This document shows positions 3,173 through 36,320 of a stretch of DNA of 64,000 bases, piece after piece. Source of the DNA: Bryoerythrophyllum caledonicum (lineage: Eukaryota; Streptophyta; Bryopsida; Pottiales; Pottiaceae); the NCBI GenBank assembly GCA_963971425.1, contig OZ020514.1, forward strand, positions 12,095,218 to 12,159,217, given 5' to 3'. Every line of letters begins with the position of its first letter. Within the stretch, counting starts at the first letter, position 1. The notes under the pieces are model-generated. The model did not search any database. It was not told the origin of the DNA and saw only the letters and a list, made by a program, of their open reading frames with translations. A program made the translations under genes and the position numbers.

Positions 3173-3186
3173 TCCTGTAAAGTAGT

Positions 3187-7504: not shown

Positions 7505-8429
7505 TTAACCCCTAAAGGACCATGACAATTTTTCACCAAAAGCACTTCAAGATTGTTGATTCTAGTGCAATGAGTAAAGAAGGAAACAAAACCTTATATT
7601 TATAGTTTTGACCAGAGGATCCCAATTAAGACTTACTAAGTAACATACTCACAAAATTTCATATACTTCGACCGTACAGATTGAAAGATTGTAGTGTTTG
7701 AAGTACTGAAAATGGTTCATTTTCTTCCCTACGTTAAGTGGATCATCAGACTTTGACTTCACTTCGTATCAAGTTTATGCACTATACAAGGTCTAAAAAT
7801 TTTACCATTGTGTTAAGCATGATGTTCGTTCCGTGTACACCAATTTTTAGAGCTAGAAAAGGGGTGTAGCATATTCAAAACAAGTGTGCATGGAGTTGAG
7901 GTTAAACATTTGCCATTTGCCATTTTATTTTTTTGTGAACTTAATATGTTTTAGAATGATAATAAAAATAGCCGATAAAAATTTTCTCACCACATATTGT
8001 TGCTGAAAAATAAAAAGTAAAAAATATGAAGATCTTTAGGTTTTATGTAGAAAAGATGAATTTTTTTCGTCTGCTTGCCCAAAATGTGTAAAAATGTTTG
8101 ACTTGAGTTAAAATGTTCTTTTACACTAAAGACAAGAATTTGCTTTTAGCATCTTCAAAGAAGGTAATATTCTCTACATGTGTGAAAAATCTCAATGTCA
8201 ATAGAATTTTCTAGCAAAATTTTGGAGATACGCGGAGTCATCATTTCTAACTTTGAGTGATACTTACTTTCAAACCATGAATGCAAATAAAATAATAAAA
8301 TAACCTCCACAAAGCTCTTATGAAGGAAAATCTAGTATAAAAATTTCGAATTTAAATGATTATAATTTTAGGAACCTGTCTAAAATCACAATCGTCTCCC
8401 CGAGGGACACTTGGTCTTTTAGGGGTTAA
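7505..8429. mobile_element. TTAA-flanked terminal-inverted-repeat element (non-autonomous)
   Basis: A 917-bp AT-rich segment (7,509-8,425) begins CCCCTAAAGGACCA and ends TGGTCTTTTAGGGG, so the ends form an inverted repeat of about 15 bp. TTAA stands on both sides (7,505-7,508 and 8,426-8,429). No transposase frame is present. TTAA plus a CCC start is the signature of piggyBac-type elements, but a TTA/TAA-targeting Harbinger-type element is not excluded. The right third is repeated at 62,498-62,803. Confidence 0.6.
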
Positions 8430-8877
8430 ATGGGATTGTTGTAGAGTTAAATAGTCCAATTTTTTAGGCTGGTAGGAGTGAAGGAAAGTACTTGGCACCC
8501 TGGTTTTTTTACTTTAAAATGTGTAGAAATTTGCGGAATATGAATCATTGTAGTGTGAAGCCCAAATGGCTAAGTTGATGGGCCATGACCCATACCATTT
8601 GGCAAATTCCAATTCTCTTTTTAGTCCTTACAGGTCCTCATTTAAAAAAATTCCCTTTCACTTTCTCTACTCATGATAGAGCCTAGAATCGAACACAATT
8701 TTGGCCAAAAAATCAAGAAAATTGCCAAATTGTGTATTACTTAAAAAATTCTAGTACGAACATTGCCATAGTAATTGTTACAAAACATCAATGGATGAGA
8801 TTTTTTTACCAAAAGAGAGTTGGTGAAAAATTTGCCAATCTGGATTAGAGCCATGGAGCAGCATGGAGAAGCCTACA
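8430..8877. other. intergenic, nothing recognised
   Basis: AT-rich sequence without a credible frame, RNA gene or repeat end that I can recognise. Confidence 0.5.
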
Positions 8878-8915
8878 GGATTGCTATCTTGTGAGCGGCG
8901 AGCGGCGAGCGTTGA
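8878..8915 (+). repeat. solo terminal repeat related to the 16-kb MULE ends
   Basis: GGATTGCTATCTTGTGAGCGG, followed by further GAGCGGC units, closely resembles the left end of the 16-kb element (GGGACGAAGCTATTTTGCGA, then GAGCGG units) in the same orientation. It lies about 0.75 kb beyond the 3' end of the interrupted ParB-methyltransferase copy B/C. It may be the left end of an older, related element that carried that copy. No partner end was found to the right. Confidence 0.45.
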
Positions 8916-9632
8916 GCACTAAATTTTAAAAAAAAAATTGGTAGTGTTTTTTGTTGAATTTGGAAAGGGTCACCTATGGCCGTGGGTTCTATTTAGACTG
9001 TGTTGACATACGAAAAATTAACAGAAATTTACGACGACAATGTACTTGGACATATGGAAGTATGAGTACTTTAGGATCGATTGCAACATTTCAATTGAAA
9101 TTGGAAGGGACGCTTATGGGTGAGGATTTAGAGTTCTATGTACTGCGACAAGTCAATAGACTAAGAAATTCAATGGAAAAAATTGAAATTATATGGTTTA
9201 GGGTGGCACGCAGAATTTAAGTGATACCTAGTTCATACCCTTATAATACCTTGATGATATCCATGTAATACCTAGGGGATAAAAATTAGATACCATGGAG
9301 ATACCCGTTGTGTTCGAACCACTCTAAATTGAAATATTCCAATTCTTCGACAGCAGTTGATTTAAAAATAGCAAAGCCTAAGATACGAAGAATGTAAACT
9401 CAGAGGACATGTAACGAAGTTACAAAGGATATTTATAATGAATCAAATATTTAATCGTAGATAGAACGAAATCTTCTCATCACGCATTAATGACATACGA
9501 TGTTTTTTGTTAGACATACGTGAAAAGAATGGGATATTGACATGAATGAAGATGACCAATGATGGGAAAATAATGAAGACAACCAACTGGTACTGTGATA
9601 GTAAAACAAAACAACAAACTAATGCAGAGGAA

Positions 9633-10452
9633 TTAAGATCCTTCCGCGAAAAGGTCACTCGTGTCACTATCGTCCGAAGAACTATCACTACTCTCCGAGC
9701 CACTAACGCAAGCCTCCCCATCTATGAAAGGACATGTAGTGGACCTACGTGGGACTACCGTTTGAAGACGTGGAGGGGAATGTTGTGCTGCCATGGCGTC
9801 AGCAATAGCGGCATCCCAGGGATTAAAATGGAATTGACGCGTGGGGCTCTTCACCTCCAACAACAACGGAGAAAGCACTCCAACATGAGTCCTTGACAAT
9901 GATGCCATCAACGACGAAGGCCGGCTGCACAAATTAAAGTCCGGTTTAGAATTTAAGCATGTGTAAAGTTAAAATTGTAAACCGCATTCCAAAACTAAAA
10001 TCAATTTAGGGTAGGACTTACTCACAACGTCTTTTCAAGACAGTCTTCACCTCTGGCTCGTTGTCATCAATCTCCAAGGGGCGCTTGCGAGAGCCTTCCG
10101 CCACCACTGTTGGCAGAGTTGACTCGACCTCAATAGTGTCAGGGATCACAAGAAGGAGAATTTCTTCCACCAACTCTCGGTCGTCCTCCAGTGCCAAAAT
10201 GTGCCGCTTAAGAGCCTTGCACGCCTTAATAGACGCCCTTTCATGAAAAAAAAAACATATGATGTTAACACATGAAAGCAAGAGTATAACAGAAGAAGTG
10301 GGTTGATATGAAAAAATTCTAACCAGTAGATGCTGTGAGATCCAGAACAATGTCCTCCTCTTGAGTGCAAAGATCAATCAGAGCCTCCATGAGGTTCGTG
10401 GACTTTTCTCGTGCACCACGCCATGGTATGTCACTATCCGCCCTCATGGTCA
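9633..10452 (-). pseudogene. 3' part of ParB-methyltransferase copy B/C (methyltransferase C-terminus)
   Basis: Minus-strand exons matching the last three exons of copy A. The first (10,452-10,324) encodes PWRGAREKST and VLDLTASTG, the cofactor-binding motif of beta-class amino-methyltransferases (compare PWRGPREKST and DCTAATG in copy A). The next encodes RASIKACKALKRHILALEDD and a basic end. The last ends in a Ser/Asp-rich tail (SSDSSSDDSDTSD) with a TAA stop at 9,633, like the STDDSDLD tail of copy A. The fragment starts exactly at the 9-bp target duplication of the 16-kb transposon, so it is the severed 3' end of the gene at 26,466-29,599. The junction of the first two exons is not in clean phase with the splice sites I could see. 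Confidence 0.75.
10444..10452. repeat. 9-bp target-site duplication, left copy
   Basis: TCATGGTCA, identical to 26,466-26,474 on the other side of the 16-kb element. Nine bases is the usual Mutator-superfamily duplication length. Confidence 0.85.
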
Positions 10453-10508
10453 GGGACGAAGCTATTTTGCGAGCGGGGAGCGGTGAGCGGTAAGTTCTGC
10501 GACTTTTT
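10453..10508 (+). repeat. left terminal inverted repeat of the 16-kb MULE
   Basis: GGGACGAAGCTATTTTGCGA followed by GCGGGGAGCGGTGAGCGG. It pairs with the right end after one short gap. The GAGCGG-type iterations could be transposase-binding sites. Confidence 0.8.
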
Positions 10509-11170
10509 TGATTAAAATGTAATATTGAGCAATAATTTTAGGGTATTTTTAGACTAACTTTATTTTTTGGCTTCGCTTTTCTAAACTTAGTTAATACTGG
10601 GACCTATGACCGTGGAAAACTTAGGGCTATGATACTGAATTTTTTTTAATTAAATCAGAGAATTATTTGGTAAATGTGGTTTAGTGAACAGTTGAAACAA
10701 TGACCGTGTACAATAACGGTTTACGGCCGTGGAAATTTTGAATACTACCACCGTTCAAGTGATTTGGAGACTTTCTAGATCAGTGAATAGATTCTTACTA
10801 TTTCAGAGTTGGAATAACTTATAATTTCAGAGTTATCAGCATTTAAAATATTTTGAATAGAAATTTACTGTATCACTAAGATGAGACATACTGTATTAGT
10901 TTTTTGAGACGTACTGTTTCAGTAAATGGGTCTTAAAGTTTTAGTAAAATGAGACTTACTGTATCAGTACTAAATTACTTACTGTCTCAAGTCAAAGACG
11001 TACTGTTTCAGTATAATGAGAATTAGTGCTACTCTAAAAGGGTCATGCAACTTTGGAACAGAGAAATACATGTGGTGCGTCAAATATCTTGTAGTGGCCC
11101 TTTTAGTCTCACTACATCATGATTAAAACAAATCTTGCATACATATGTTTCTTTGAAGAAACAAAAAACT
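10509..11170. other. left subterminal region of the MULE, non-coding
   Basis: AT-rich with repeated short phrases (GAGACTTACTGT, GACGTACTGTTTCAGTA) between 10,860 and 11,030. No gene seen. Confidence 0.5.
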
Positions 11171-14100
11171 CTAATAGTCAAGGTACTTCAGTAAACCACC
11201 CTCCAAAACTCGCTTCACTTCGTTGAAGCTAAAACTAGCGGCATGAATGAACGTGTCTGATTCTGAGTCCAAACCACACACTACAGTAAGCAAATAGTAC
11301 AAATGCTTACAGTTGGCCCATTGACCCCGTTTTCCAATTGCTTTAGTTGCCATCTCTTTAAAGTTATGACAACTGCGTGCTGGCAGCTGCAAAATTATCA
11401 AGTAGTATTGCTGAACCTTTGGGGACGTGCCGGAATCCAATGAGACGATGCATCCTAAGGCAGGGGCTGGAAGCATGCACAATTTGCGCACTCTGCCTTT
11501 CAGTGATAGAGCTGAGGCACAATTATTGGCGTGCTTTGTTGACGGGGCCTTCTTGTTGCGCCGAATCAACTTCCCTGAACGCCGGGTGGGAAACTCATCC
11601 GGATATGCAGGAGTCGTGTAGCTTGCTAAGTCCACATGTAATGGGTGGTCTTGAAAAAGTCTTGTAGGGGTCATCTCCTTCCGTTGGGGCAGTCTAAAGC
11701 CTGCATTTTCTAAAGAGAGGATCTCTTTGCAGGTTAAGTTGGTCCCCAACTTAACCAGCCATACCTCTGGAACATTCGGCACTGAGAGCACCCACTTCCT
11801 TTTTGTGCCCTTAATGCATTTCTCAATGTCGTCGTTGCAGAAGAAGAAGTCCATGGGGTCGGTCCTATTCTTCCAATAGTTCTTCATGAGGCCCGAGTAG
11901 GTAGGTGCAGCGGTGCTCTTCCCGTCTTGTACAATCCGAGCAACACACTTCTTCTTGGTGATTGCTTATAGAGCAAAGCAAGCCTTTGCAGATGTCTTAG
12001 GCAGACGTGCAATATGCCACTGGGCACGGTTGCATGCTGTCTCCTCAATTGCCGTGATGTGGTAAGGATCCAGCTGCTGCGGAGCGTCGAGTGTTGGAAA
12101 TTGCGGCTGCTCGTCATCTGTAGTTGTGGGAGAATCTGGAGTTATCACAGGAGGTGGAGAGTCGTTGTTCATTCGGGCAGATCTGGTTTGGACTCGTGGT
12201 CGGGATATACTGATCTTGTCTGGCTTGTGAGATTCACGTTCGTCACCAAAAACAGTATCTGGTTTACGCTTCAGAGAAACAAATACCTCTTCCCCTTCGA
12301 GGTGGGGAGTCCTGGTGCACCACTCGTCACCGCCAGGCATCTTCAAGATGGCCTCATGAAGCGGTTTGGAGTTTCCTGTTTTTAAGGCTGACCTCTGAGC
12401 ATGTCTCAGCTTCAATTCCTCTTTCGACGGTCCAGTACCAGGGTTCTCTCCCTTCACGAATTGACAATATGCTGAGCACTGCATGAAAGCACGCACGAAG
12501 TCATCGACAGTTGCCACATATAGGTCGCTGCCTCGATCGCCAGATTGCTGCTTCCACTTGTTATGAATAGATTCAGCAAGGTTACAGGATGGCATTTCCG
12601 CTAGTTTGTCTTCACTAAGATCCTGCAATGTGAATACACTCCCGAATTAGAATAATGGTGGAATTAATGTAGTAGTACTATATAGAATGAAGTATAGATG
12701 AAATATAGAGGGAAGTCTAGACTTACCAACTCCATAAATCCACCCCATTGGCGGTAACGGAAATGCCAGAAGGCTAGTCAGAGCTCCAGTCGAGGTAGGG
12801 CTTGTTCAGTTGCTGCACCGGATGACATCCACCATGCCCGAATTGCCAGATACTTCGTCTCGGCCTCCGCCATCGATTTTGCATTCTTGTATTGCAGGCA
12901 TAGTCTTCGATGCTGAGATTGCAGGTCTTGACGGATATCGGCCTTGGTATGTTTCTCCAATGACTGCGTCCAATGGAAAAGACAAGTCCTCTCTTTGTCC
13001 ACCATCTTCTCAGACGCATCTCCACTTCCGTATATGATTCGAACTGCATTCCAGTTGGCTTGGGCACTGTCGGCCATGAAACCTTTAAAATTGACGAAGT
13101 CCACTCCATGTTGAGCCATTAGAGCGTTTAGGTTCTTCCATACCACTGACTGGGCTGCAACTCTTCAGACTGCATGTCGCATACTGCGATGGTCATGACA
13201 CGGCAATATGTGGAATCGTACACATGGCAAGCCATTGTTGTCCACGACCTGACCCGTTTGACATGGTCAAACATTATCCAGGAGTTCTCCAGGTCACCAC
13301 CGGTTTGCATCCGTTTCACCAGGTCGACTCTGCTACCCGGTCCAACTTCAGACATCTTGAAGACAAAGACCTTGTCCATGTCCTCTCCTTGCCCTGGAAA
13401 CATATTCCTCTGCACAAACTTCCAATTGCTAGCACCGGGCAACTTGGTAATACTGTCCATGATTCCAAAGCGACGGATAGTCCTAAACGTGGTGGCTGCG
13501 TTCCGAATGTTGGGCGAGGTGAGGTGCTTACAGCGATAAAAAATAACTTGCAGCTCGTCCAGCTCTAAGATCTTCTGTGGTTCTCCTTTTTTAGCAAGGA
13601 GGAGTGGGCCTAGTACTACCTTCGCAGTTTCAAGCACAATAGCCGAGCGGGTGGCTGATGGAGTGCGATCGACTTGCTCACCAATCAAGTTGTCTGTCAG
13701 TTCGATGAAGTCCCGATGATCTCCTGACTTGACGGGATGGTCGTGAGATCCCAAGTGCACACAAGCCCTGGTCATGTGCGGTGTTGCTGTAACATAGTAA
13801 ATCTTCGCAAGGCAAACAACAACACAAGTGGGAGGGACGTTACAGGATTTGCAAACAACGGTCGAACCAGTGGGAGGCTTGGACCCCACCTCAAACACCT
13901 TTTCAGACAATCCTTCCCACTCTGTTTCATTCAGTTTCGAAGTCCTGTGGTCTCGCTGAAGATACTCAGAGTCACGGTTGTCGCAACGGAGGTGGCCCAA
14001 ACAAGAAGATGTACGAAATAAAAGATTCAGATCATTCTGAATATTGGATGTAATTGTGCGAGACCAAGCATGGCCATCGTACCTTCTATCCATTCCACGA

Positions 14101-14815
14101 AGCTGCTTGGCCTTAGTGTTTTGGCCATGGGCACCTATAGGTGGAAATTCGAATATAACATCCCCATCGTAATGAGGGGGGAGGTAATCAACCTGCTGGA
14201 GTTTGATTGCCTCAAAGTTAATTCGGGATATGACATTTTTGGACCGTTTACGAGCTCTAAGGCGCATCAATGAATGAACAATACTCACTACAGGACTTGC
14301 CACAACCTTGGACTGACCAAGAGTACGAGAAGGACTAATAGGAGGAGTTGATTCCTTGCGATCTACTTCTGGAGACAGCGCAGCTTGGACATACTCTATG
14401 ATCTTATAACTTCAACCTCACTATCGGAATCATCACTCAACTCATAAATTGTTTCTAGACCGGGCTCAATTTTGACCCTAGACAACACTGGTCTCTCAAT
14501 GCTAACAGTGGACGACTCTCTAGGTGTTAGAAGTTCAGTCAAACCATCTAACACAGACTCAGAGACTCCATACACACGATATTTTCCGGGCTTCAGCAAC
14601 TAGAACGTACCCACGTCATTCTCTCCTCTAGTCTGACCAACTGCATGTGAAAGTAGACCGGTTTGATCGTCAAAAACTTCTTCTTCGACAAAGATAGTGT
14701 CCTCACGAAACTGAAACCTCAAACTTAGTGTTGTACATGTGATTGTAGCATGACCGTTTTCACCACATGGAAAGAGGATCGGAACATAATGGTGATCAGC
14801 ACGAACGAGGGCCAT
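11171..14815 (-). pseudogene. MULE-type transposase with GCM/WRKY-like zinc finger and SWIM-like end
   Basis: Minus-strand gene starting at the ATG at 14,815. The N-terminal part is acidic. A GCM/WRKY-like finger region follows (CLGHLRCDN and CKSC; about 13.8-14.0 kb). Next is a DDE-type core with MADSAQANWNAV, RTCLFHW and CNLAESIHNKW (12.5-13.1 kb), resembling Mutator-like transposases. The end has a SWIM-like GQWANCKHLYY (about 11,290). An intron with good GTAAGT and CAG ends separates FMEL from DLSEDK (about 12,614-12,728). Damage: an in-frame TAG at 14,602-14,600, an in-frame TGA at 12,777-12,775, and frame changes near 14,400 and 13,150. A TATATATA at 14,931-14,938 is a plausible promoter. 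The family resemblance is from motif reading only; the 9-bp target duplication of the enclosing element agrees with it. Confidence 0.7.
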
Positions 14816-15858
14816 AGTATTCCACAGTGAAACGCACAACCACTGAATTCAATACGCATCTACAAAAGGACTTGAACAGCAGCTCGACACAACAAGTACT
14901 CTGAACATTGAAATGGCAAGTATATATAACACTGAAGGAATTACAGTGTAAATCGGTAATTCTATCTCAGAGTAATCCGGAGTTAAGAAGTAGATAGAAA
15001 GTCCAGCAGAATTAGCTAAAAGACGGCTTTAGGAGCAATTTTAAACGTCAGTTAGAGAGACTTAAGAAATCAATATCCATCTTAAGCATTGTATACAAAT
15101 ATATAGATATATAAAGAAGTGGTCAAATCATACACAATCAATAGCTGTGATACATAAATGTTCATCAAAAATTAGTTTCCAAAAACATGCATACATTCTA
15201 AACATTGATGGTCATAATATAGATTAGCAAATCAGGTCATGAGGATGACGGCCGCATCTAAATATGTGGAGAGCATGCAAATAGATCTGCAATAATAAAT
15301 TCCATACATCAGAAAGTAAGCATGCCATATTGTCATTAATGACAAACACGCTTAAGGGGCCCTTCGGCAATATTAGACCCATGCACATGCTTGAGATTTG
15401 GTGCAGAATATGCCACCGAATTTGGTTAGAATTTGGCCCAGAATTGGTCGAACCCGCACATGGTTCAGAATTTTCCTACACCCCTCGCCTCGTTTACCCC
15501 GCCCTAGCCTTGGTTTAAACCCTCCAATTATATTTTGTGTGGATTTACTGTCAAACCTACCAAAAACGTCCCGAACATACACTATGGTCTGTCCAGCATG
15601 TCAGGGGACGAATTTTAGTAAAGTGCTCCTCAAAACAGGGGTCCGGTCCCTGAAAACTCTAATCTGGGTACATTTGTGGAGGCCTATTGTCACCGTCATA
15701 ATCAGTACACCTTTCAGTACGAATCTCAAATTATTTAAAAAATAGTATATTAATTATATATATCTAAGAGAATATGAACATGATGAGAGCGAATTGATGT
15801 GGATTATGTTAGTATTGACAAAGATAAATAGGGTCTGTTTGCTTCAGTTTTGTTAGAG
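14816..15858. promoter_or_regulatory. divergent promoter region between transposase and ParB-methyltransferase
   Basis: About 1 kb between the two divergent start codons. TATA-like sequences are placed for both: TATATATA at 14,931-14,938 about 115 bp upstream of the transposase ATG, and ATTATATATATC near 15,753-15,764 about 100 bp upstream of the methyltransferase ATG. The head-to-head layout allows co-expression of transposase and cargo. Confidence 0.45.
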
Positions 15859-18800
15859 ATGATCACTAGATCGAGAGCGAGAGCAGATAGAGAAGTTAGG
15901 AGGACTATAGAAAAACAGAGGCGCAGTGAGAGAAGGCAAAGATTAGAATCAAGAGAGAACTTAGGGACGCCGTACAACTTGCGGCCAACAATGGGTAGGC
16001 GAGGTGGTAATTCATCTAGGGGAACAAGTAGAGGTACCAATGGAGATAAGTCGTTTGATGTGTCAGCGGTAGCCCCCATCATTTTATTCCCAGTTTCAGA
16101 GGAAGGAACTTTTGTTGACAAGGAAGGCAGAGAGGTGTTTTTTATTTGCGATCTTATTGATTTTCGAATTTCATGTTCACCTCAATCTTGGTTTCTTAGC
16201 GTAGTTTGGACTTATTAACTTCACTTGTGTTTCTGTTTCAACGAAATCGGCTTTATTTTGTTATTATAATGTTGGCTGTTGGAATGTGGCTTGGAATGTG
16301 TGTCGACAGGTGGACCAGGGACTTCGGCTCAGACAGACCCAACCAGGCGCAGCATCGAGTGCGTCGACATCAGCTCACACTAGGTAGCAGGTTTGAGTCT
16401 GATCCTTTGTGATGAGTGCTATTCATTGCTATCACGTTTTATTGTCAACTTCATTGCTAATGAGTGCTTGCCTTTTATTGCCGTAGACTGAACAGAGTAG
16501 GGAGGAATTCGATCGCGACGTTGACGTTGTAGACGTCGGCCACGGCAGCATGGACAATGACGCGCCGACCATCGGGGAAGAGGTTGGCAGTCACACCCAA
16601 ACTCTAATGTCTGAGTCGTTGTTTGATAATTTTTAAAACCCTAGTTGGCCCATCGACTTGTTTGGGGATGGATTCGTCCTTCCTGATTCGACCTAGGAGA
16701 GTGACAGTAGTTTAGAGTGGTGTTCAGATTTGGGTTTTTTTTGGGGTTTGTTGTAGGCTGTTTTCTCCATTTCAGATCCATTTCAGAGCCGAGGTAGACT
16801 CTCGAGCCTTGTTTGCATGTCTCAAATCGAGATCATTGAATTTGAAGATCCTGCAGTCGATGGTCGAGGTCGATGGTGAAGGCCCTTGGTTGCATTCGAT
16901 TAGTGTGTCTCGTTGAATTTGATTCTTGAGCACTCTGTCACGAATTAAAGTGGTCCTCACTGCGTAAGCCCATCACAATAAAACCCGAGCCGTGTGCATT
17001 CATTAGTGTGTCTCGGGACCGAGACACCCCTGTGGACTTAGATTCTTGAGTACTCTGTCACGAATTTAAGTGGTCCTCACTGCGTGCGCGCATCACTATA
17101 GAACCCGAGCCGTGTGTATTCATTAGTGTGTCTCGGGACCGAGACACCCCTGTGGACTTAGATTCTTGAGTACTCTGTCACGTATTTAAGTGGTCCTCAC
17201 TACGTAAGCCCATCACAAAAAAACCCGAGCCGTGTGCATTCATTAGTGTGTCTCGGGACCGAGACACCCCTGTTGAATTAGATTCTTGAGTACTCTGTCA
17301 CGAATTTAAGTGGTCCTCACTGCGTAAGCCCATCACTATAGAACCCGAGCCGTGTGCATTCATTAGTGTGTCTCGGGACCGAGACACCCCTGTGGACTTA
17401 GATTCTTGAGTTCTCTGTCACGAATTTAAGTGGTCCTCACTACGTGCGCGCATCACTATAGAACCCGAGCCGTGTGTATTCATTAGTGTGTCTCGGGACC
17501 GAGACACCCCTGTGGACTTAGATTCTTGAGTACTCTGTCACGTATTTAAGTGGTCCTCACTGTGTGCGCCCATCACTACAGAACCCAAGCCGTGTGCATT
17601 CATTAGTGTGTTGGAAACTGTTGTAAACTTGGTTGTTCATGGTGACAATGTTGTAGAGAAACAGGAGTCAGAGAGGAGCGGAGGGGGCGATTTGGCAAAT
17701 TCAGTCACCCTGTCTTGGGACACGGGACTTAGATTTTTGAGTACACTTTCACGTTGCAGCTTATCATTTGTGAGGAAAGGAGTAGATCAACAACAGGTTG
17801 CCCTCCCACAATCAGTTACTGCGAGCTGTTCCGGGTCTACTTATGTCTGAAGATTTGTGTGGTTCGGATACAGTGTATCCAAGGTTCAGCATAAAAAATT
17901 ATAGGAAACGATGCAATGGAAAGAGCCTTTCAAATCGTGTGTCAACTTGTGAAAATACTTAGTTCCCAGAACATGATATTTATCTAGAATTCTCAGTGAA
18001 TGCATTGGGGTATCCTTAAGTTCGGACATCAAATTTGAAAGAAATTTAATGAGTAAAACGCAAATGACAAGTCATAGCAGAACCTGGCAACAATGAATCT
18101 TCAGGAGCAAAGAGATTTTCAGAGATTCAGTGTTCAAGTCTGTCGTTGGAGATAAGTGTCTCGGCCCCGAGACGCAGCTTTCGTTAGATCAGTATTATTC
18201 ATTCAACTTCGCGGTGTTGTCTGGTTTTATCAGAACTCTGTTTCAATTTTTATGTGATTGGACATTTCGGTGCCGAGATAATACTTAGATGATGATCAGA
18301 TCATTGGAGTTTTCTATTTAACATGGAGTGATGGTAATGAGATGTAGCTGGGTTCTTGAAATTTCCGTCTCGGGTCCGTGACATACATTTTAGAGAAAGC
18401 GGATAGCTTCAATAAGTTTCAGATTAATACTATGTTTACATTATAGTTTAGTTGTTTCAAATTTGGCAATGTTCAGAGTACAGCTAAATGAACAGCTAAT
18501 TGAAAGTTTATTGAACAGCGTTGACTGAATCTTATGTTGGTGAATGAAGACTTATTTTGGTGAGTGAAATTCTATGATGTGATTTATGTGTGTTTCGGTC
18601 CCGAGACAGATTGGATGATGGTTTTGCAATTTCCGTTGAACTAGTAGAAATAGAGGTCTTTGGGTCACATCCTACAATTAGAGTCCAAGATATCATAAAA
18701 TATTATGTCTATATGGTCAATGAAATATCGATTATACTTACCTGAGGTTTCTCTAACTAATTAAGAACTTGTGATTTGTAGGTAGAGCACCACACGACGG

Positions 18801-21800
18801 AGGATGTACCTGCTGTATCATCACCGGCAGCGACTCAAGTTTCAGAACGAACTGCAATTGACCTAGAGAGTACTGAAGAGGGACAGGATGAGGATGAAGA
18901 GGGGGCTGATGATAGAGATCCATTTGACGGGGATGAAGATGATATCAGAACCCGTCAGAAACTGAATTCTGTGGCCACTATTTCTCATCTGAGAGTCCAG
19001 CCCCTTAGTTCTTTGAGGTTCAATATTCCCCTATGCAGAATGATGGCCATGCCTATGGTGAGGCCAACACTCTCAACTGATCTTGCTAAATTGGAGCAGG
19101 AATTCGTCCATGGGTATAGAGAGGGTGCCTCAGTTTTCTATGTCACAATAACAGATGAAGAAGGCAAAACACATGAGGTGACAGAAGCTGATAAGGCATA
19201 TTGGGGTCCCATTTGGAGTGCCAAGAATGAAGAATTCAATTCCTTTCTTCAGTCCGTTCCCGAGTTGGCCAAATTCAAGAATTTGATGTTCTTTGTGTGT
19301 GACGGTAACCATAGGCGGCAGGCTTGGTTAAATCATATTCAAAGACTTCACAAAACAGAAGAGGCCTGGCATTATTTGGTGGATAGCATCCTCCTGGATA
19401 CGAAGGGAAAAATTGGTGTTGTTATGCAAGTTATGCATAACATCAACAAGTAAGTATAATCTACTCAGTAGTATTTTCTTTGAAATGTACTTAAAACCTA
19501 CCAATATTATGATGTGCTAATCTCTTCTCTATGATTGTGAACTGCAGACATACGGAAGACTCTCACGTCAAGACCAACACAGTTCACACCTTATTTCGGG
19601 TTCAGAAGTACGGTCTTATGCCGCTTGATCAGTATCAAGACATATTGACACCATCGGAGATCAAAAGGTGCAAAAAATCTCAAAATGCGAAGAAAACGTG
19701 GTATACATTGAATCTACATGTATTTACGAACTTCATCTTCCAGGTATGATCTCTATCATCTAAATGAGCTATTCCCTCGGATTATATTTCTTCGGATACT
19801 AATTCCTCGGAATTCTCATGTATCAAGCTGCGGTTTGTGTGTATAGACCAGGCCTAATTCAGGAAGTAACGGTTGAATTCATTTCTTTATGCATTTGCTG
19901 CATTTGCATCTTACTTGATAATCTATTACGGTGGACAAGTATTTGATGAAACACAAATATCTGCGTCCAATATAGAAGCCACGTACCTCATGAGTATGAT
20001 GCATTATTTTTCAAAACCGGTTGCTGGACAGTCTGTGGTTAGCTGCATGTGACTCTCGGTCCTGAGACAAACTTTGAGTCATGTGGTTCATGCGTAAACT
20101 TTTCGCTGGCTGCATGTGACTCTCGGTCCCGAGACCTACTTCGAGACATGTGGTTCAAAAGTAAACTCTTCGTTGGCTGCATGTGACTCTCGGTCCCGAG
20201 ACAAACTTCGAGACATGTGGTTCATGCGAGAAGTTTTCGTTGTCAGTCATTAACTGGCGTACAATTATATGTACGTGTCGAACCTTTGAGCGGAGCGCGT
20301 CAAGAGTGATTAAATTCGTCGAATCCCACAGGGAGTACTATGTGGGGAAAGGTCTCCTCGGGAAGACTCCTCCGCCTTGAACAGTTGCTGACGACCCGTG
20401 AAAGGCGCGACCGCACGTTGGAACTGACGGCGTCACCCTTGGTTGGTTTACCTGGTAGTGTTTGTCATCGACGTAAACTTCTGAGTCGCGCTGGCGGGCC
20501 TCGGGGCGACCGGACCCACTGTCCCGATTGGCGCCTGGCGAATGCCCAGGTGCGTTGTCCTTTCAGTTGTGGGTTGCCGAGCCCAGTGTTCCGCGTGGTC
20601 ATGGCTGCTGATTAGTCCCCCGCGTCCGCGCCAAGGTCGTGGTCGGTTGGTCTTGTGGCTATAGGCGGATTGGCTGCATCGTGTGACTCGAGCTCGTAAT
20701 GGCTTTGCGGGAGTCAACGCCTTCACTGTTGTGAAATCGTCCCTCGTGTAGAGGTTGTCGAGGAGAAGTGTTTGCTGCTGGTGCCAAGGTCCGCCAGGTC
20801 GGCCCCACGACGTCCACCATCGGCGCCTACTGTATTGTCGAATCGTCCCTCGTGTAGAGGGGGTCGAGGAGAGGTGTTTGTAGTCGCAGGCTGTCCATTA
20901 CGCGGGCGTAGTGTGGGCCGTCGTCATGCGAGAGAGAGAGGCTTTTATGAATCCTACGTAATTTGTTTTAAGCTATTCGTCAGCGATATGTTTGGGCTTC
21001 GCAAGGAACTATGTTGTGTAGAGAATTAGTAACCTTAGCGCCCTTCAAGACGGCGTATTGTTGGTTCATGCGTGGACATAATTTGGATGGCAGAGCTATT
21101 CAGATCCGTTTGGTTCTGCGGTGCTCGTTTTTCTATGAAGCTGTAGGGCTACTGGAGTATTTTGATTCGGATTTAGATCAGGAACCTGCTAGTCGAGCTT
21201 TTCTGAAACTCTACGTCGTTGAATTTATCACTAGCGTTGTATCATTTGAGAGCCCCTAGTCATGTTATTCTACAATTCAAAATGATCTCTATAGTACTTA
21301 CTCTCAATGACATATCCCCTCGAATTTAGTTCACATAAAACAGGCTGCGGCTTAAGTGTGTAGACCAAGCCTAAACCTCAGGTCACACCTCTACAACTTC
21401 TATGTTATTTCCCTCTCCGTTGACCTAGTTGACAGTTGTTGTTTCGTTGCTAGACATTTGACTCTCGGTACCGAGACACACTTAGAGGTACATGTTTAAC
21501 TCCGTCTGTTCAACTCAGCGCCATGCATGGATGACTAACTAAGACAATCACTTTGCAGCACGAACTCGGACTGGCTGCAGATGAGGGTGTTCGTCAACTT
21601 GTAGAGCAATCAGATGGAGAAGTGTCTTCTGCTGAAAAAGCAACCGCTATGAAAGTTGCTACTAAAAAGAGAGCCGAGGCACTTCATAAGAAAATGTCAA
21701 AACTCGTTGCCGTGGCAAACCCTGAGATGACAGACGGATGGCTTCGAGAGGTATGTCCACTACTTCTAAAGCATATTATTCATTCTTCAAGTACTTTAAT

Positions 21801-24800
21801 GAACTACGTGATTCTAATAAATCCCTCTATGGTTCACAGATTGAGCGTCACTATACTCTTAACTCAATTACATCCGAGCTCAACTTAGAGAAGTTGCAGT
21901 TGATTGTTACTGCAAAAGCATCATCCACTTCTGAAATCAAATGGTTGGAATATTTCAATTCCTCTGCATCAACACGTGAAGCCCGCAAACTGCCAACGAA
22001 GCCCACCAACGAGGAGAAATTGTCGACTTTTTTAGCCAAGGCGTGTTTTTGGGCCGGAGTGAGTAAATAATCCTTAATGTTATCGTTTAATTCTCTGTGA
22101 GCTGATTTTAGAAATTGCATGTGTATTGTGTGCAAGCTCATTTTGATATTCATGTGAAGTGCATGCAAGCTCATGTCGATAAGCATGTGAGTAAATGCAT
22201 GTGAGCTGTTTTGAGTAAATGCATGTGAACTTAAGTATGGTCTCATTTCAATAATCATGTGAACTTCTTGCAAGCTCATGTCGGTACTCAGTCTTGCTCA
22301 CGCTTTTCACTCTGTTTTCACAGATATCCGATCAGGCTTCGATTATCTTTGACGACATCGTGCGTCAAGACAGACTGGTTATCAATTTTGATGTACCCAA
22401 CGAGCCTTTGACCTTGGCGTCTTACATCGAGGACTGTACAATGAAATTATGGGACAATGCATTCCCCACCTTTTTCCGAGGATAGGACGCTTTTAAAAAA
22501 ATTGACGAATTTGTGGGCTTTAACGGGACTGACTTGATTGTGCGTCGAGTACTCTATCGGTGAGTTATTTTCTTCAACTACTGTAGTTGTTAGAGTTGAT
22601 CAATCAGAATTGGTTTTCCAGATGGAATGTACTTCGATTGTTTCGCATATAATAATGTGGTGTTTCATACCCACAGGTATTTCAAGTACGAGCTCCTTGC
22701 AAAAGGAGCAATAAAGAAAGACGATCTCCCCGTTTTTCTTACTGCATGGCTTGATAGGTCGAACTCAACGTGCATGTTCTCGGCACATCAACAACGGACG
22801 TGGTCAACCTCACATCTCACAGGAGGTGGATGGTACCTTGACTGTCCTCTCAGTTTCACTCCTTGCTTTGAAACTGAACTTAGAAAGTCAAGGGAGGCAG
22901 TTGGAGAATCTGGTGTTGAGATGGTTGACTTACAGGGTATAGAAGACGAGCACGAGAGGGCAAGGGCCCTCTCGCAACGTCTTGATGAGGATAGGAAGAA
23001 AGCGCTTAGAGTGAAGGAAGCACAGGAGAAAGCGGCACAAAAAGAGGTGGAAAAATTACAGAAGGCATTGGAGAAGACTAACAGGAGGGGGAAAAAGAAG
23101 ATGAACCCCCCTCCCGAGCCAGAAGGTAAAAGTCCTCTTGCTCCAAGCCCAACTTTCGATTCTGGATCTCAAGCTCCTACTTTCTCTCGAGGTACAAAAC
23201 GGGATTCCTCATACGAACAGTTGAGTCAAATTACCGTTTTTAATTTGGGAGAGGAGAACGACAGCCAGATTGACGAGCTCATTATCAATGTCTCCATGAA
23301 GGAAGTCCTTGGCGATAACTCAGATGACTACACCTCTTATTACAAGGACTTAAAAAGCTTCATGATTAAGGTATTTTGACTTTGACCTGTTGTGTCAAGA
23401 CTCGCCTGTCAAATTTTTTTAGTGTACAAACTCACAACACCTATCCTAAAAATAAGCACACTTTCGAAAACATCGAAGCACGAATGTTCAGATGCTTGTT
23501 TTCTACTATAACCATGGCTTGACTGTTGAGGGCATACTGCTTGTTTGGTCGTTGATTGTCGAGGGCATTCAATTCAGGTTATAATCATGTTTACGTACCA
23601 CTTTAGGTAATGTTGATGTAGTTCAATGTTGCAATTTCAAAGCCATTATTCTAGTATTTATGTACTAATCTCTGAGTGTGTTTGATTATTGGGCAGCATT
23701 CCAAAAGCAAAGCTCGAAACTACAAGGGGACTGTCAGGGTCCAGCCCTGCCTAGACCTGATTCTTGCTGATATCCCAGAAGGCTTGCCCGTTCCAGGGAT
23801 CTCCAATCCTCCAACGTCCATTCCTGCCTGGAATCAAGAAACTCAGGAGTGGCTTCACCCAGTCTTTGATTTTGCAGATAATCATTTGCATGATGACGGG
23901 GCCATCATTTTGTTTCATCCTTTTCGTATGACTACGAAAGCAAACATCCTTGGATATTGTCAGTGTTTCGGTTTTGAAGTTCGCAAGGAGTGGTGGGGGA
24001 TGAACCGCCTCCATCTCATGTCCCCGATTAATCAGAGCGTCACTGTAAGTTAATTTTCTAATTACAGTTCTTGTTTATCCTCTAACATTTTCATATATTA
24101 TTTGGCACAAATGCTACGTAATGAATTCTTGAGATTTTTTAATCTCAGTTTTGGGTTGAGTTTGCTGCTTGGATAGACTGGATTATATCTGATTTCAAAG
24201 GTCGAAGAATTTCATTGGCTGATCTGAAGCTCTGTACTGGTCTACTTGGTATAATGATACTGATTACATTGATGGTGTCTATGGTGATTGCCTGATTAGA
24301 TTGATGGTGACTATGCTTGGCAGACTATGCATTTCGGGATTACATTGATGGTGAGGACCATGCCTGACAAGCCTGCTTCCAGATTTTCATTTCAGCCTAT
24401 CCCCGCTCTTGTCCGACACGGGGTAGATGTATCAAGAGATGATATTCTACAAAACCTTGTCTCTCGTGATGATCAGCTCATGCATGGACCCACGCCGTGG
24501 CGAGGTCCGAGAGAGAAGTCTACTCTTTTAATGCAGATGTTAATTCAGTCTTCTACCTCCCCTGGAGATGTTGTTTTAGACTGCACTGCTGCTACGGGTA
24601 CGTTAATTCAGTCATTCATATCACAACGTTAACTACTTCTACTTGGTTATTGAGAAATCACACTAATTTATTTGTTTATTGTAGGATCTTCCATCCAGGC
24701 GTCCCGCAACGTCGATCGTCACATCGTGGCGTTAGAGGCTCATGAGGCCATTTTTCATGCCTTACTTAAACCCTTGATTCGTTCTAGTGTTGCTCCTGAG

Positions 24801-25265
24801 GTCACTTCTGGAGCAACGACAACTAGTGAGGATCCAGAGGGCGATGTTCTTGTGGTCCCGAGAATCGTGAAGAAGTCTCGATTCAGTAAGTGAGTTTGTT
24901 GAACATTAATTCATTTGTTATACTTTTTAGTATCATTGTATCAAAGATTGAGTTATAAACATGGTACTTTTGGCATTTGTAGATATGGTCAAGTGAGCTA
25001 TCCTAGTCACCGCCCTTTCTTTTGTGAACCTACGTTTTATCGAAGTCCTCCAAAGACTTGGGAACTCCCTTCCTACGCAAACGACACTGCTATTGAACTA
25101 GCTAGTGGATCTTATCGTACTGTTATTCCTAAATCTTATCCGGGAAGATCTATAGAATTTTGTGATATTGAAGCGGTGGAGTCTGATCGTGAGTTATCCT
25201 CAGATGGAGTGTTTAGTGATTCAAAGGACTCGGCATCATCCACCGATGATAGTGATTTGGATTAA
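15859..25265 (+). CDS. ParB-like domain plus beta-class amino-methyltransferase, copy A (transposon cargo)
   Basis: Thirteen exons by splice consensus. The first three are approximate: from 15,859, around 16,308-16,385 and around 16,498-16,608. Then 18,781-19,449; 19,548-19,743; 21,559-21,750; 21,840-22,058; 22,324-22,559; 22,677-23,370; 23,697-24,044; 24,324-24,597; 24,685-24,889; 24,983-25,265. Order of parts: basic N-terminus; acidic linker; a ParB/sulfiredoxin-like block with FFVCDGNHRRQAW (exon 4), where DGNHR fits the GxHR motif of ParB-type domains; helical middle; Lys/Glu-rich coiled coil (exon 9); a motif-IV-like LILADIPEGLP (exon 10) in place of the usual DPPY; then PWRGPREKST and VVLDCTAATG split over the exon 11/12 junction, fitting the cofactor motif that lies C-terminal in beta-class N4/N6 methyltransferases. 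The Ser/Asp tail ends in TAA at 25,263-25,265. Homology with copy B/C over all exons supports the model. One in-frame TAG lies at 22,483-22,485. Methyl target and activity are unknown. Confidence 0.7.
16890..17610 (+). repeat. 120-bp tandem repeat array in intron 3 of copy A
   Basis: Five full units of exactly 120 bp (16,921-17,520) plus partial units at both ends. Each full unit holds the perfect palindrome GTGTCTCGGGACCGAGACAC and a conserved GATTCTTGAG phrase. Units differ at only a few positions. There are no unique spacers, so this is a satellite-type array and not a CRISPR. Confidence 0.9.
20041..20241 (+). repeat. 67-bp tandem repeat, three copies
   Basis: Three units of 67 bp (20,041, 20,108, 20,175) in intron 5, each with GCATGTGACTCTCGGTCC and a CCGAGAC arm. 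The palindrome is shared with the 120-bp array although the rest of the unit is unrelated. Confidence 0.85.
20272..20945. other. GC-rich island inside intron 5
   Basis: About 670 bp of clearly higher GC than the AT-rich intron around it. It holds a duplicated phrase AATCGTCCCTCGTGTAGAG 106 bp apart (20,735 and 20,841), followed each time by GTCGAGGAGA. No convincing protein domain. It may be a separate insertion. Confidence 0.5.
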
Positions 25266-25694
25266 TTGTGATAGCTATGTCACAGTGTTGGTTCACCTTT
25301 ACAATGGAACTCAGAGACCTGGACGGTCATTCATTTCACATTGTATACTTTATTTTCTTGTCAGTTATACGATAGTCCTTCAAGATATGTAATGTTTTCC
25401 CGATATGAACTACATGGCATATCCTTGAATATTTTTCTCTCACATGATTTATTTATGTTATGCTGTTCTACATGTGTATCGTGATGGTTTGTGTGTACAG
25501 TCTCGGTGAATATTGAAGGATCAGTTTCCCCTTTCTCTCTGCAATTAAATTGTTCATTTGCGTTAGAAAAAAAATTAAAAAATATTTAATGATCATACAT
25601 AAAAGCATTCCTAGACGTAACACATGTGTTTACGTTATTTAGTTCTGACATTTGGAACTGCATTTATGCATCCTTCCAATTAAGAGGATACCTT

Positions 25695-26253
25695 GGGGTG
25701 AAAGTACACTACACCCTACCTCTTTTAGTGTCACAGTGTCACACTTGAGGAACAAACTTATTTTAAATTTACATAAATGCACAAAATTACATGCATGAAC
25801 ATGGTTCAATGATTGATATTACTCATGCATCCTAGGGTCCAATGGCATTTTTCCATGTCTAATCTATATTTATATATATTCACTAAAATTCACAACAGAT
25901 GAGAAATTTAATAAAAAGTTGAGAATAAGGTTTTTAACACTTTGGTTGGTTGATGGAGGAAGTGTACAAGATTCTAGAGGTGGGCCTAATTATATTACTT
26001 TTTAATTCGTCTTTGGAATAATTCTTAACTTAGGTTTAGAAGAAATTACAAAATCACGTTGTACCCCCTTCTAAGATTTAGTATTTGTAAAAATCCCTTG
26101 AAGAAAGAATAAAACAATGAAAAATAGTCCAACATGTAGAATGTTTTTAGCTTCCTCCACCAACCAACCAAAGTGTTAAAAACCTTTTTTACATTTTTTT
26201 ATTGAATTCTCTGTTTTTGCCCAGAAATGGTAGGTGTAGTGTACTTTCACCCC
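25695..26253. mobile_element. foldback MITE in the right subterminal region of the MULE
   Basis: Ends GGGGTGAAAGTACACTACAC and its reverse complement (21 bp or more). A second inner inverted pair spans 25,929-25,968 and 26,148-26,190 (TTAACACTTTGGTTGGTTG and complement). TTG stands on both outer sides. No coding frame. Confidence 0.65.
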
Positions 26254-26410
26254 TTGCAAGACTAACAATGACCGCTGGTTTTGCTTTTGATATGTGAACC
26301 TTTATAATTGAATGGAAAAATTCATCGTCAATAAATCTGTAACATATTCAAAAGTACTTCCTAAACCGCGGTCATAGGGTATGCTTCACCTAACAGAAAT
26401 GATCAAAATT

Positions 26411-26465
26411 ACAAAAAAGTTACCCCTCACCGCTCACCGCTCACTGCTCACTGAATAGCTTTTCC
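26411..26465 (-). repeat. right terminal inverted repeat of the 16-kb MULE
   Basis: Read on the minus strand from 26,465: GGAAAAGCTATTCAGTGAGC, then AGTGAGCGGTGAGCGGTGAG, then ACTTTTTTG. This matches the left end apart from a 3-base gap and scattered changes. Confidence 0.8.
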
Positions 26466-26474
26466 TCATGGTCA
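26466..26474. repeat. 9-bp target-site duplication, right copy
   Basis: TCATGGTCA, identical to 10,444-10,452. Confidence 0.85.
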
Positions 26475-29400
26475 AAGTCTCCTGAGTAATGAGATTGGTC
26501 ATGTGACCATCTGAAGACAGCTGAATCCCATCTCGTTGCAGCTCCATCCTATCAAAGAAAGAGAATGGAACCCCTGGATCCAATTTCTTCACGAAGCACT
26601 TCACAAGGAAGCACTTGTGAGTGCGCCCATGGTGGCCATCGCAAAATAGTGGCAGCCCGTTGATGGCGAACCACTTCGTGTCCTCGACAAAGCCCGCCCA
26701 ATCGACCCACGCTACAAGTTCATTGGAGATGAACTTCGAATCTGGGTAGAAAACTATAAGCGGCGCCCCGTCACAAAGTAATGCCCCAACCATCTCAAAG
26801 GCCCTGTAAATCCAATGGGATTCTTTCTTACCTCCGTCTGATAACTAGGTTGGAAGCTTGTTCCAATTTGGTACAACGATGCCGCTGTCAATGTCGGGGA
26901 CTGGTAAATCCATTGGAACGTCGAACAATACCATATCCGCCAAACCTAGAGTGCAATCCAATGCCTCATGTCGCCGATGTCGTGAGCCCGAGTGCTCCTT
27001 CAAAAACATGCGAAGCTCCTTCCATGCTGTAGGTTCGTCATCCTCTACAACGACACTATCAAATAGAGACATGATGGAGAGGGCACTCTCACACATGACC
27101 TTCACAACAGCAGAAGACTGAGGACGATCGAATATCGGAATCAAGTACACAGTCTGCGAGGGCTTCACATCAAAGGTTGAAGGTCGACTGCTAGCAGAGG
27201 GTGAAACGCCCATCGTCAGTGTCACCGCTGGAGGGACTGCGAATCCTCCAAATCCTCCTAGTTGAGTAAACAACTTCTGAGGCCCTTCCTTCGCCACCAA
27301 CGCCGCGAACTCCTTGTACCTCTCCTTCGTCTCTTTCTTCTCCTTCTTGGAACTCTCCTTCTCCAGCCTACCAGCCTCCCTCTCCTATTCCTTAATTACT
27401 GCCATGGCTGCTTTCTCAGCAGCCTTGGCTTTGGCCTTCTCAGATTGCTCCTCAGACGCTGCCAAGGGAGCCGCCAACAAGAAAAGGACGCTGCCAACAA
27501 CAGGAGGAACCGCAATGGATTCGCAGGCCACTCGTAGTTGGACCTCGTCTCCAGGGGTTGGATCCACCTCCCGCATCTCCAAGTACCAGGGGCATTGGAG
27601 GAGGTGGTGCACAGAAAACTGACGCCTCTGTGTATCTGTGAAGATACACTCTGAGTAGATGTATTTATCCACTTTGTGAAACGGATGGGTAGATCTCCAG
27701 TCAACAAGGATCCCTGGGCCACGAGCACCCTCCAAAAATATCGCATCACTGCTCGCTTGAGAACCTTCTCCCATCCGTCTTGTGCCATAAACTCCTCGCC
27801 CTTCGTGTAGGAGCTCCCCTTGCCGATGTGAGTAGAGAACACCTTTGTCCACAACGTCATACTCTTTGCCTCAATCTATTTTCCAATGGCAGGAATGGGA
27901 TTTAGAAGCCCTTCAGTCTGGAGGACAATGTTGTCCTCAAGGAGAATCTCTGCGTAGAGTTTCTCAGACTCTTCTTCTAGCTGTGAAACAAAATCCACAT
28001 AGTTAGGAATTGATCTTAAAGCAAACATTCGAAAATAATGAGAATATCAATAAAGATTGGACCATACCCCAGCCCAGTACGTTGCCTTGTCAATCCAGCC
28101 ACGAAGAACCTTATCAGACGCGGGGAAGGTATACTCCATCCTGCTGCCCTTGCTCATGTTCCACCACCTGCACTAGCGCGACTTGAACTTCGCAGCTACC
28201 CTAGCCGTGGCGATGAACTGGAGTTTTTCGGGAGTCATCTCGGGTCGCACCTGGTAAACATCAAAGTGACGATTCACCTACATTCCAATATCAATAATTA
28301 GAGTGAAATTTACAAGGCCAGAAGTTAGAAATTCAATATGAAAAAGATTGGAAAAAATACATTTACCCTACCTATTTGAAGAAATCCTCCCCGTTTGCCG
28401 GGTTGGCAATTGCCAACAACCGAGTGAGCATGGTCTGGCAAGTCGTCTTCTTCTTTTGCACAGCTTCAGTGCAATGGCTCACCAACTCTGCAACACTTCC
28501 ACGCCGATCTTCACTAACACCCGTGACCAAGTTGTCCTTAAATTTTTGGATCTGCTCGTCTTGAACAACAATCAGGTCCCGTTGTGGACAACATAAGGTC
28601 GTGATCAGTATTAATATTTTGAACTGGAATATTAAAAGGAGAGGAATGGCAAGTGCTACCTGGACAAAGTGATCATTACGTACCTCATACATGAGCTTCA
28701 CAAATGCTTCGAGAGTCATATGATACCACTTTTGTTGTCCCTTCTTTGACCACTCAAGGACACTCAGTTTGTAATCTTCATCGCTGATGAGCCCCTTCAG
28801 TTGCTCAAACTCTAAGAGGCCGAAATGTTGAACACGCTTTAGGTCGTGTGTGAGGTGTTGCACAACGTGATCTGATTCTTTTTGCCTATGACAAAAGAAT
28901 ATTTCAGTGTCATTAAATGAAGTACAATAGTAAAAGCAACTGAAACAAACAAAGTTTGGAGTATCTTAGTTCGTGCATACCTGTTCAAGTCGGTCATCAC
29001 GTTGAGCAAAATGTGTCGGTTCTCGATAGTAGGCTCGATAACCACGGCTCTAATGGGCACGTGAAAGGTGACATCGGATGGGTGTAGTTGGGAAATCACC
29101 TCGGTCCAAGCCATATGGCGATGATTGCCATCCCACAGGAAGAAGAACTTCTCTGAAAACGCCGAGTACTCCGGTCGAGTCTTCAACAACTCCTCGAACT
29201 TCCGGTCCTCTTCAATCCAAAGCTCAGACCACGTTGACATGTCTAGTGGTTGCACCCGCTTCTCGACAAGGGAGAAACTCTTCACCGACATATAAAAACA
29301 TGCAGAACCAGGCCGATACCCATTGACAAACTCCCCCTTCAATTTCTCGACATCACTTCTAAGAGGTAACCTCACCTCAGTCATGGGCACCATCCGGCAG

Positions 29401-29599
29401 AGAGGAATTGGGAGATCACCAGCGAAAGAGCAAATGCTACTCTATAGGATGTTGTATGAGGTCCCACGGATGGACCTCCGCAAAGATTGAAGTGTAGGAG
29501 CCAGCCCATGCTCATCAACAAGTTCAGTGATGCGTGCTTCGTCCTCCATAATCTCAAGGTCCTCACGTGAAGAAGTTGTTGTAGGTCCCAAACTCTCAA
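26466..29599 (-). pseudogene. 5' and central part of ParB-methyltransferase copy B/C, split by the MULE
   Basis: Minus-strand exons about 29,599-28,981; 28,874-28,684; 28,563-28,372; 28,277-28,068; 27,980-26,466. The parts follow copy A: IPLCRMVPM, KLKGEFVNGYRPG, the ParB-like FFFLWDGNHRHMAW, NVMTDLNR, a WYHMTLEAF exon, the AIANP exon end, a YWAG exon end, the Lys/Glu coiled coil, and the motif-IV-like MVLFDVPMDLPVPD, then GALLCDGAPLIVFYPD. Coding sequence stops at the target duplication; the rest is at 9,633-10,452. Six in-frame stops, all TAG (29,444-29,442; 28,374-28,372; 28,175-28,173; 27,878-27,876; 27,387-27,385; 26,847-26,845), and one frame change near 27,655. N-terminal exons matching exons 1-3 of copy A were not found. 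It is clearly a diverged paralogue, not a recent duplicate of copy A. Confidence 0.75.
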
Positions 29600-29777
29600 C
29601 CTGCAATAAGTATGCATGAGAAACTGAAGCAACAAATTGCATCCACCTGAACTAGAAACTTGAAATGAATTAAGATTAAAATCTAGAACAGACGAGTAAA
29701 CTAAATTCCTGCTCATGCAATCCAACAAGTATGGCCAAAATGGTCATGAAAAAAACTTATAGCAAAATGAATCAATG

Positions 29778-36315: not shown

Positions 36316-36320
36316 GAAGC
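36316..36320. repeat. 5-bp target duplication of copia element 1, left
   Basis: GAAGC, repeated at 58,087-58,091. Confidence 0.9.

Follow-up and report, generated by a model that had tools for sequence, protein, structure and literature searches.

In a 64,000-nucleotide stretch of the genome of Bryoerythrophyllum caledonicum (Bryopsida, Pottiaceae; contig OZ020514.1, positions 12,095,218 to 12,159,217), referred to here as the window and taken from a 437-Mb assembly, we analyzed a 16.0-kb DNA transposon at positions 10453-26465 of the window, the inner element. The inner element contains a transposase gene on the minus strand lying head-to-head with a second, multi-exon gene on the plus strand, with the 3' ends of both genes pointing toward the termini. 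The second gene joins a block with the letters DGNHR to a module resembling N6_N4 methyltransferases and is called the methyltransferase gene below. Sequence comparisons across the assembly, this one genome being where the linkage of the two genes was established, make us nearly certain that the inner element belongs to a large and apparently recently active family of terminal inverted repeat (TIR) transposons in which both genes are regular components of a two-gene element. The best overall explanation, which we regard as probable, is a two-gene element with an element-specific helper protein.

Element anatomy and linkage of the two genes

An earlier note on this DNA had described a 16-kb TIR transposon with a 9-bp target duplication and GAGCGG-rich ends. 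Confirming this description, TCATGGTCA abuts both termini of the inner element as a 9-bp target duplication, whose identity can be extended from 9 to 11 bp (CCTCATGGTCA), and the termini form an inverted match over 36 bp with 83% identity. We also observed six matches to GAGCGGYGAGCGGYGAGC in the window with up to three mismatches, in comparison with 0.07 expected from shuffled sequences. The transposase and the multi-exon DGNHR-methyltransferase gene, which the note had likewise placed head-to-head, were both located between the termini.

The anatomy of the element resembles that of Mutator-like elements (MULEs), which are characterized in PMC6446971 by 8- to 11-bp duplications, inverted ends, a Cys/His-rich block, a D..D..E arrangement, and second open reading frames (ORFs) such as mudrB and MutB. 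The window duplication, at 9 bp extendable to 11 bp, falls within this range. Direct repeats adjoin the ends of the window element (11 bp) and those of the genomic copies E1, E2, E3, E4, and E7 defined below (exact repeats of 10-12 bp, in which some bases may belong to the ends). In the transposase, D, D, C, and H are conserved (A5), and a candidate E lies in NLAETVHNKW, with a spacing of D-48-D-218-E in P0003 as read from the sequence. In contrast to this anatomical likeness, a MULE profile match was absent. The window transposase, for which we detected 73 relatives in the protein collection, matched no Pfam family at E ≤ 10; among 42 transposase relatives, none matched PF10551 at E ≤ 10 and one matched PF00872 (E=0.18). 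Because the anatomy is MULE-like but the profile test failed, we consider it plausible to describe the element as MULE-like by anatomy and do not call it a MULE, so that the "MULE-type" transposase of the earlier note stands for the anatomy and falls short of profile support. An alignment scan of IMG/VR with the transposase confirmed no relatives.

Across the whole genome, the end pattern GAGCGGYGAGCGGYGAGCGG produced 456 + 508 matches versus 24 + 36 for a reversed control, with overlapping matches counted. Among the first 100 matches listed, we chose by eye facing end pairs 13-33 kb apart as intervals E1 to E6, leaving a facing pair 46 kb apart out of the set, and added a further interval, E7, picked with the knowledge that a methyltransferase exon was present. 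The exon queries c_19550, c_22324, and c_24684 were out of frame in the window, seven-interval, and end-place comparisons. In all seven end-to-end intervals (E7 being preselected), pieces of both genes were present, arranged head-to-head so that their 3' ends face outward to the termini. For the transposase pieces of these intervals, identity to the window transposase was between about 40% and 96%, and the most diverged methyltransferase pieces showed 22-38% identity. The earlier note had allowed that copies of the same ends might never contain the methyltransferase gene; we observed the opposite. Its term "cargo" is the wrong word for a gene that is the regular second gene of the element in these seven intervals and in the linkage analysis that follows.

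The DGNHR exon was scored at no fewer than 150 places among 1761 candidates, with 25 of the best 30 rows lacking a stop, and the transposase at no fewer than 98 places among 2608 candidates. Eight transposase rows, each with an open frame of 730 residues, had an equal score of 573.1 bits, which points to recent spread of the family. For transposases with at least 84% identity, a head-to-head DGNHR exon occurred within 30 kb in 31/33 cases, in comparison with 0.5% of random positions. A scored head-to-head DGNHR exon was found within the same distance for 4/34 transposases at 68-83% identity and for 9/31 at 59-62% identity; 3 of the 98 scored transposases had a DGNHR exon within 30 kb in another geometry. 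Because all four places examined among the 52 in these weaker groups without a scored DGNHR exon carry a diverged methyltransferase gene, the low linkage in the weaker groups reflects incomplete exon scoring, at least in part.

Analyses limited to the sequence labelled C1 provided further counts. We inspected 27 GAGCGG end places, a nonrandom set consisting of the first C1 matches (L001-L008) followed by 20 consecutive ones along C1, minus E1 and E4 (L007 and L008 denote one place and enter the count once; L002 is E7 and L007 is E1). Within about 1.5-2 kb, a methyltransferase exon was found at 9 places, a transposase piece at 9, and neither at 9; at one of the transposase-facing places (L044) the orientation was wrong. 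Either marker lay within 30 kb of 12/17 scored C1 transposases. An inward-facing motif IV of the methyltransferase module was detected within 6 kb of 19/67 C1 end clusters, mostly at about 2.0 kb, versus 0.4% for random positions, and in the wrong orientation at 1/67. Exact-pattern motif IV was also present within 20 kb downstream of 10/24 scored C1 DGNHR exons.

The second gene: protein, selection, and candidate target sites

Splice-path enumeration, in which GT-AG junctions were obligatory, resolved the second gene into ten exons on the plus strand at 18782-25265. The top path contains a single in-frame TAG near 22484, and the runner-up path contains four stops. In line with the amino-methyltransferase reading of the earlier note, the spliced product of the inner copy matched PF01555 (N6_N4_Mtase) in a Pfam profile search (E=8.3e-9, 36.2 bits, profile positions 27-217), as did the second copy of the gene present in the window, the outer copy described below (E=1.3e-6, 29.0 bits, profile positions 165-219), both exceeding the curated cut-off of 26.7. 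Motif IV falls outside the match in both copies. The closest solved structures by sequence were DpnA (5hfj/5hek, E=5.9e-5) and CcrM (6pbd, E=2.8e-4), aligned around motif I. We also detected the NCBIfam CcrM model under its cut-off (E=4.6e-6), a PHROGs DNA methyltransferase family (E=1.4e-7), and 43 distant matches in phage records, every one below 60% identity.

Motif I reads D-x-x-A-x-T-G, corresponding to the S-adenosylmethionine (AdoMet) motif DxxAxTG, in the copies read. The canonical catalytic motif IV of N6_N4 methyltransferases is [DNS]PP[YFW], and that of DpnA and CcrM is DPPY. In the family described here, motif IV has the D and the second P but neither the first of the two prolines nor the aromatic residue: it reads D[IV]PE in 8/9 readable copies (inner, E1-E6, and L050), and the decayed outer copy has DVPM. 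Across the genome, the codon pattern of D[IV]PExLxx[VI]P was matched 310 + 324 times (634) versus 3 + 6 (9) for a reversed control. Because of these copies and matches, the odd motif IV is common in the family and is not the defect of one copy. The protein resembles the beta-class adenine methyltransferases DpnA and CcrM in having motif IV before motif I and in its alignment around motif I, and it differs from them in its D[IV]PE motif and in being fused to an extended middle region and the DGNHR block.

The letters DGNHR are invariant in 25 aligned rows. As a query, the DGNHR exon detected 382 relatives in the protein collection, and the spliced methyltransferase protein detected none. Since the lone exon was successful, we ascribe the null result with the spliced query to the length filter and introns. 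An alignment scan of IMG/VR with the DGNHR block confirmed no relatives. The earlier note had assigned this block to a ParB/sulfiredoxin-like class, an assignment for which profile searches were nowhere significant: PHROG_1033 (ParB-like) reached E=0.34, PF06245 (DUF1015) matched 2/25 DGNHR members with a best E of 0.061, and a Pfam search of DGNHR proteins gave no ParB family at E ≤ 10 and no significant sulfiredoxin link. An AlphaFold2 model of the DGNHR exon had a predicted local distance difference test (pLDDT) score of 67.4 and a predicted template modeling (pTM) score of 0.67.

We compared ratios of nonsynonymous to synonymous substitution (dN/dS) between copies. The methyltransferase gave values of 0.13-0.20 in six pairs without the inner copy or E4, and the transposase gave 0.08-0.23 in the four of those six pairs where it was present; synonymous sites were near saturation in pairs with E5. 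For the inner-E4 pair, dN/dS was 0.46 (0.30-0.68) for the methyltransferase and 0.39 (0.25-0.59) for the transposase. The inner-E1 and E4-E1 methyltransferase comparisons were saturated at synonymous sites. Six methyltransferase pairs among L049-L052 gave 0.27-0.65. These ratios indicate that the methyltransferase gene is under purifying selection.

Other comparisons revealed different histories for the two halves of the element. Over 3.9 kb of the transposase half, identity between the inner element and E1 reaches 87%, but their methyltransferase halves align as two exon pieces only. L049 and L050 match at 97% identity over 3.9 kb in the methyltransferase half and have the TTCGGnnCCGAA motif in common, and their transposases show 76% and 62% identity to the query. 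Because the halves differ in this way, we read these patterns as modules apparently exchanged between transposase lineages.

Short palindromes are clustered in many copies and are candidate targets of the second protein. With up to one mismatch, TCTCGGnnCCGAGA occurs at 13 sites in the inner element (0.08 in shuffles) and nowhere else in the window; exact copies number nine in the inner element and eight in E4. TGCCGnnnnCGGCA occurs 5 times in E2, 10 times in E3, and 9 times in E7; TTCGGnnCCGAA occurs 2, 4, 3, and 4 times in L049, L050, L051, and L052, respectively; and ATCGGnnCCGAT occurs 3 times in E1. CTCGGATCCGAG occurs 21 times in E5, where the 20 displayed occurrences lie inside a 276-bp satellite that holds another, still commoner palindrome. 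With about 38 units, this satellite takes up the greater part of the intergenic stretch of E5 (L018-L020), at 7279-17784 of the interval. No palindrome was repeated in E6. Overall, one palindrome recurred beyond the shuffle maximum, which was 2 per region in 20 shuffles each, in 10/12 regions. Conserved arms with varying spacers are the trace that a dyad-binding protein would be expected to leave.

Nesting and other features of the window

The inner element has inserted into another, diverged copy of the methyltransferase gene on the minus strand, which the earlier note had not described. This outer copy has 34% identity to the inner one in the DGNHR exon (E=5.9e-27) and 63% over 35 residues in the piece with motif I. 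The arrangement reads as an element apparently nested in an older relative (Table 1). A second transposase was found neither in the window nor in the next 20 kb rightward. At about 30300-34200 on the minus strand, in the outer copy's 5' region, lies sequence that we take, from its general resemblance, to be like a long interspersed nuclear element (LINE).

Table 1. Positions of the inner and outer elements and their parts within the window
Feature	Position	Strand	Remarks
Left target duplication TCATGGTCA	10444..10452
Right target duplication TCATGGTCA	26466..26474
Left inverted end, GAGCGG repeats	10453..10497	+
Right inverted end, GAGCGG repeats	26425..26465	-
Transposase gene	14848-11171 (about)	-	1 frameshift and 2 in-frame stops by our reading
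Candidate first exon of methyltransferase gene	15832..16218	+	Open frame; similar piece in E1 and E4
Tandem repeat, about 120-bp units, five TCTCGGnnCCGAGA palindromes	16912..17611	+
Span of 13 TCTCGGnnCCGAGA sites (≤1 mismatch)	17011..21476
DGNHR exon	18782..19449	+	Splice path; 382 relatives
Middle exons	19548-19743, 21559-21750, 21840-22058, 22324-22559, 22677-23370	+	TAG in 22324-22559
Methyltransferase module exons	23697-24044, 24324-24597, 24685-24889	+	Motif IV DIPE in the first, motif I in the second
Last exon	24983..25265	+
Outer copy, 5' part, interrupted by inner element	26467..29600	-
Outer copy, 3' part	9636..10443	-
GAGCGG-type end of outer element, just past 3' end of outer gene	8879..8917 (about)	+

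Elsewhere in the window, a Ty3/Gypsy-type element on the plus strand (41567-48808) carries a C5-cytosine methyltransferase domain upstream of its reverse transcriptase (PF00145, E=1.3e-11), with the motifs FGGIG, PCQ, and ENV present. Following its integrase is a Cys/His end that is presumably PHD-finger-like. No flanking repeat pair was detected between 38501-41600 and 48701-52000. In kind it resembles KnitGypsy-Dnmt3 from Klebsormidium (PMC5890265). A dirigent-like gene is located at 61128-61610 on the minus strand (PF03018, E=9.3e-18) and is the chief sign in the sequence of a land-plant host. ORFs that we take to be of the hAT transposase type lie at 4586-6638, and a 657-residue ORF, presumably protein-kinase-like, lies at 1220-3193, both on the minus strand. 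A 1.2-kb direct repeat with 93.7% identity occupies 35117-36267 and 62804-64000, running to the end of the window, and a 358-bp pair with 98.6% identity (36317-36674 and 57729-58086) lies between its copies.

Possible roles of the second gene

Taken together, the regular pairing of the two genes, the selection on them, and the clustering of motifs point to a possible helper specific to the element. We put forward tentatively that this helper may be a DNA-binding or DNA-modifying protein acting on the palindromes of its own subfamily, for which we infer what it targets, which chemistry it uses, and how the element benefits. The DGNHR part, the middle region, or the transferase module would recognize dyad-symmetric sites between or within both genes, and the transferase module would then flip and modify a base there, at N6 of adenine or N4 of cytosine. 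Alternatively, the odd motif IV may be inactive, such that the protein would merely occupy these sites. Labeling of the element's own DNA could counter host silencing or license transposition on labeled copies. A narrower version, in which a D[IV]PE methyltransferase would mark only its own lineage via the subfamily palindromes with a modification other than 5-methylcytosine (5mC), be traded as a module, and act as a silencing shield, strikes us as rather unlikely.

The closest working model for such a helper, by analogy, would be VANC of the Arabidopsis VANDAL elements. According to PMC5735166, VANC binds short motifs that are often tandemly repeated and that vary between related elements. 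Like VANC (PMC5735166 and PMC10398659), the second protein would be an element-encoded accessory protein for its own family with motifs repeated in noncoding parts and differing between relatives. Unlike VANC as presented there, it has a PF01555 module, and its candidate motifs are dyad-symmetric. The word "methyltransferase" has no occurrences in the main text of PMC5735166, nor does "methyl" in that of PMC6446971. KnitGypsy-Dnmt3 (PMC5890265), a further model, is likewise a transposable element with a DNA methyltransferase under purifying selection; it differs in having a C5-cytosine enzyme within a retrotransposon frame rather than an N6/N4-type protein encoded by a separate gene of a TIR element. 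In agreement with the earlier note, which knew of no described plant DNA transposon with such a gene, we found no precedent for a DNA transposon with such a methyltransferase gene among the open-access papers covered by our searches (Repbase excluded). Fungal KDZ transposons, which are linked with TET/JBP genes, also associate a eukaryotic DNA transposon with genes for DNA-modifying enzymes, but KDZ is another transposase superfamily and the enzyme is an oxygenase rather than a methyltransferase.

Several observations weigh against a two-gene element with an element-specific helper. Both genes of the window copy are broken, the target duplication of E5 is ambiguous, and E6 has no duplication adjoining its ends. 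On C1, neither gene faces 9/27 end places, and 5/17 scored transposases are without either marker within 30 kb. The dN/dS interval for L049-L051 is 0.32-1.47. Considering that the second protein is without a canonical motif IV, it may not methylate. As for the candidate targets, L049 (two copies) and E6 (one) do not exceed the shuffles, 5/9 exact TCTCGGnnCCGAGA sites of the inner element lie within one tandem repeat, the clusters were selected after inspection, and close relatives are nonindependent. The motifs also sit within or close to introns of the gene itself and would travel along with it even if they were no target.

If the methyltransferase gene had been picked up once as a passenger, with all copies descending from that event and no role in transposition, the broken window copy would be readily accommodated, and uptake of host gene fragments is known in MULE-like elements according to PMC6446971. 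Against such a capture stand the identical head-to-head layout in lineages whose transposase pieces fall to about 40% identity, the purifying selection, and the 31/33 linkage. The spread over diverged lineages largely refutes a captured passenger, which we now regard as very improbable; captured cargo was rejected with the gene regularly present and the geometry constant (7/7 intervals, 31/33, and 4/4). A helper that has lost catalysis through D[IV]PE, and whose DNA-binding or base-reading domain recruits the transposase or activates transcription, is a more serious contender, if still somewhat doubtful. Motif IV deviates from [DNS]PP[YFW] in 9/9 readable copies with the rest of the protein under purifying selection, but the AdoMet motif I is retained in the copies read, as are the D and second P of motif IV.

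Dam methylation regulates bacterial transposons and insertion sequences, and by analogy methylation of the ends or promoters may time transposition after replication. The presence of an N6/N4-type module within a cut-and-paste element and the concentration of GAGCGG units at the ends of several copies are consistent with such a regulator. We nonetheless consider it improbable: the clearest palindromes sit between or within the genes, away from the ends, and at least about half the GAGCGG units of E4, E6, and E7 lie more than 300 bp from the ends. Lower still we place a substrate of RNA, such as the element's transcripts, or of protein instead of DNA. The unusual catalytic motif and the diverse substrates of PF01555-like folds would suit this idea, but DNA adenine methyltransferases are the closest relatives by sequence.

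C5-cytosine methyltransferases are known already in some retrotransposons, and VANC is known as an anti-silencing helper of a plant DNA transposon. A transposon family with an amino-methyltransferase-like gene as the regular, selected partner of its transposase would unite both ideas. With hundreds of natural copies and candidate sites, such a family would allow a direct test of targeted N6-methyladenine (6mA) or N4-methylcytosine (4mC) in a plant, and, should the reworked motif IV prove active, a well-studied catalytic center would gain a new variant.

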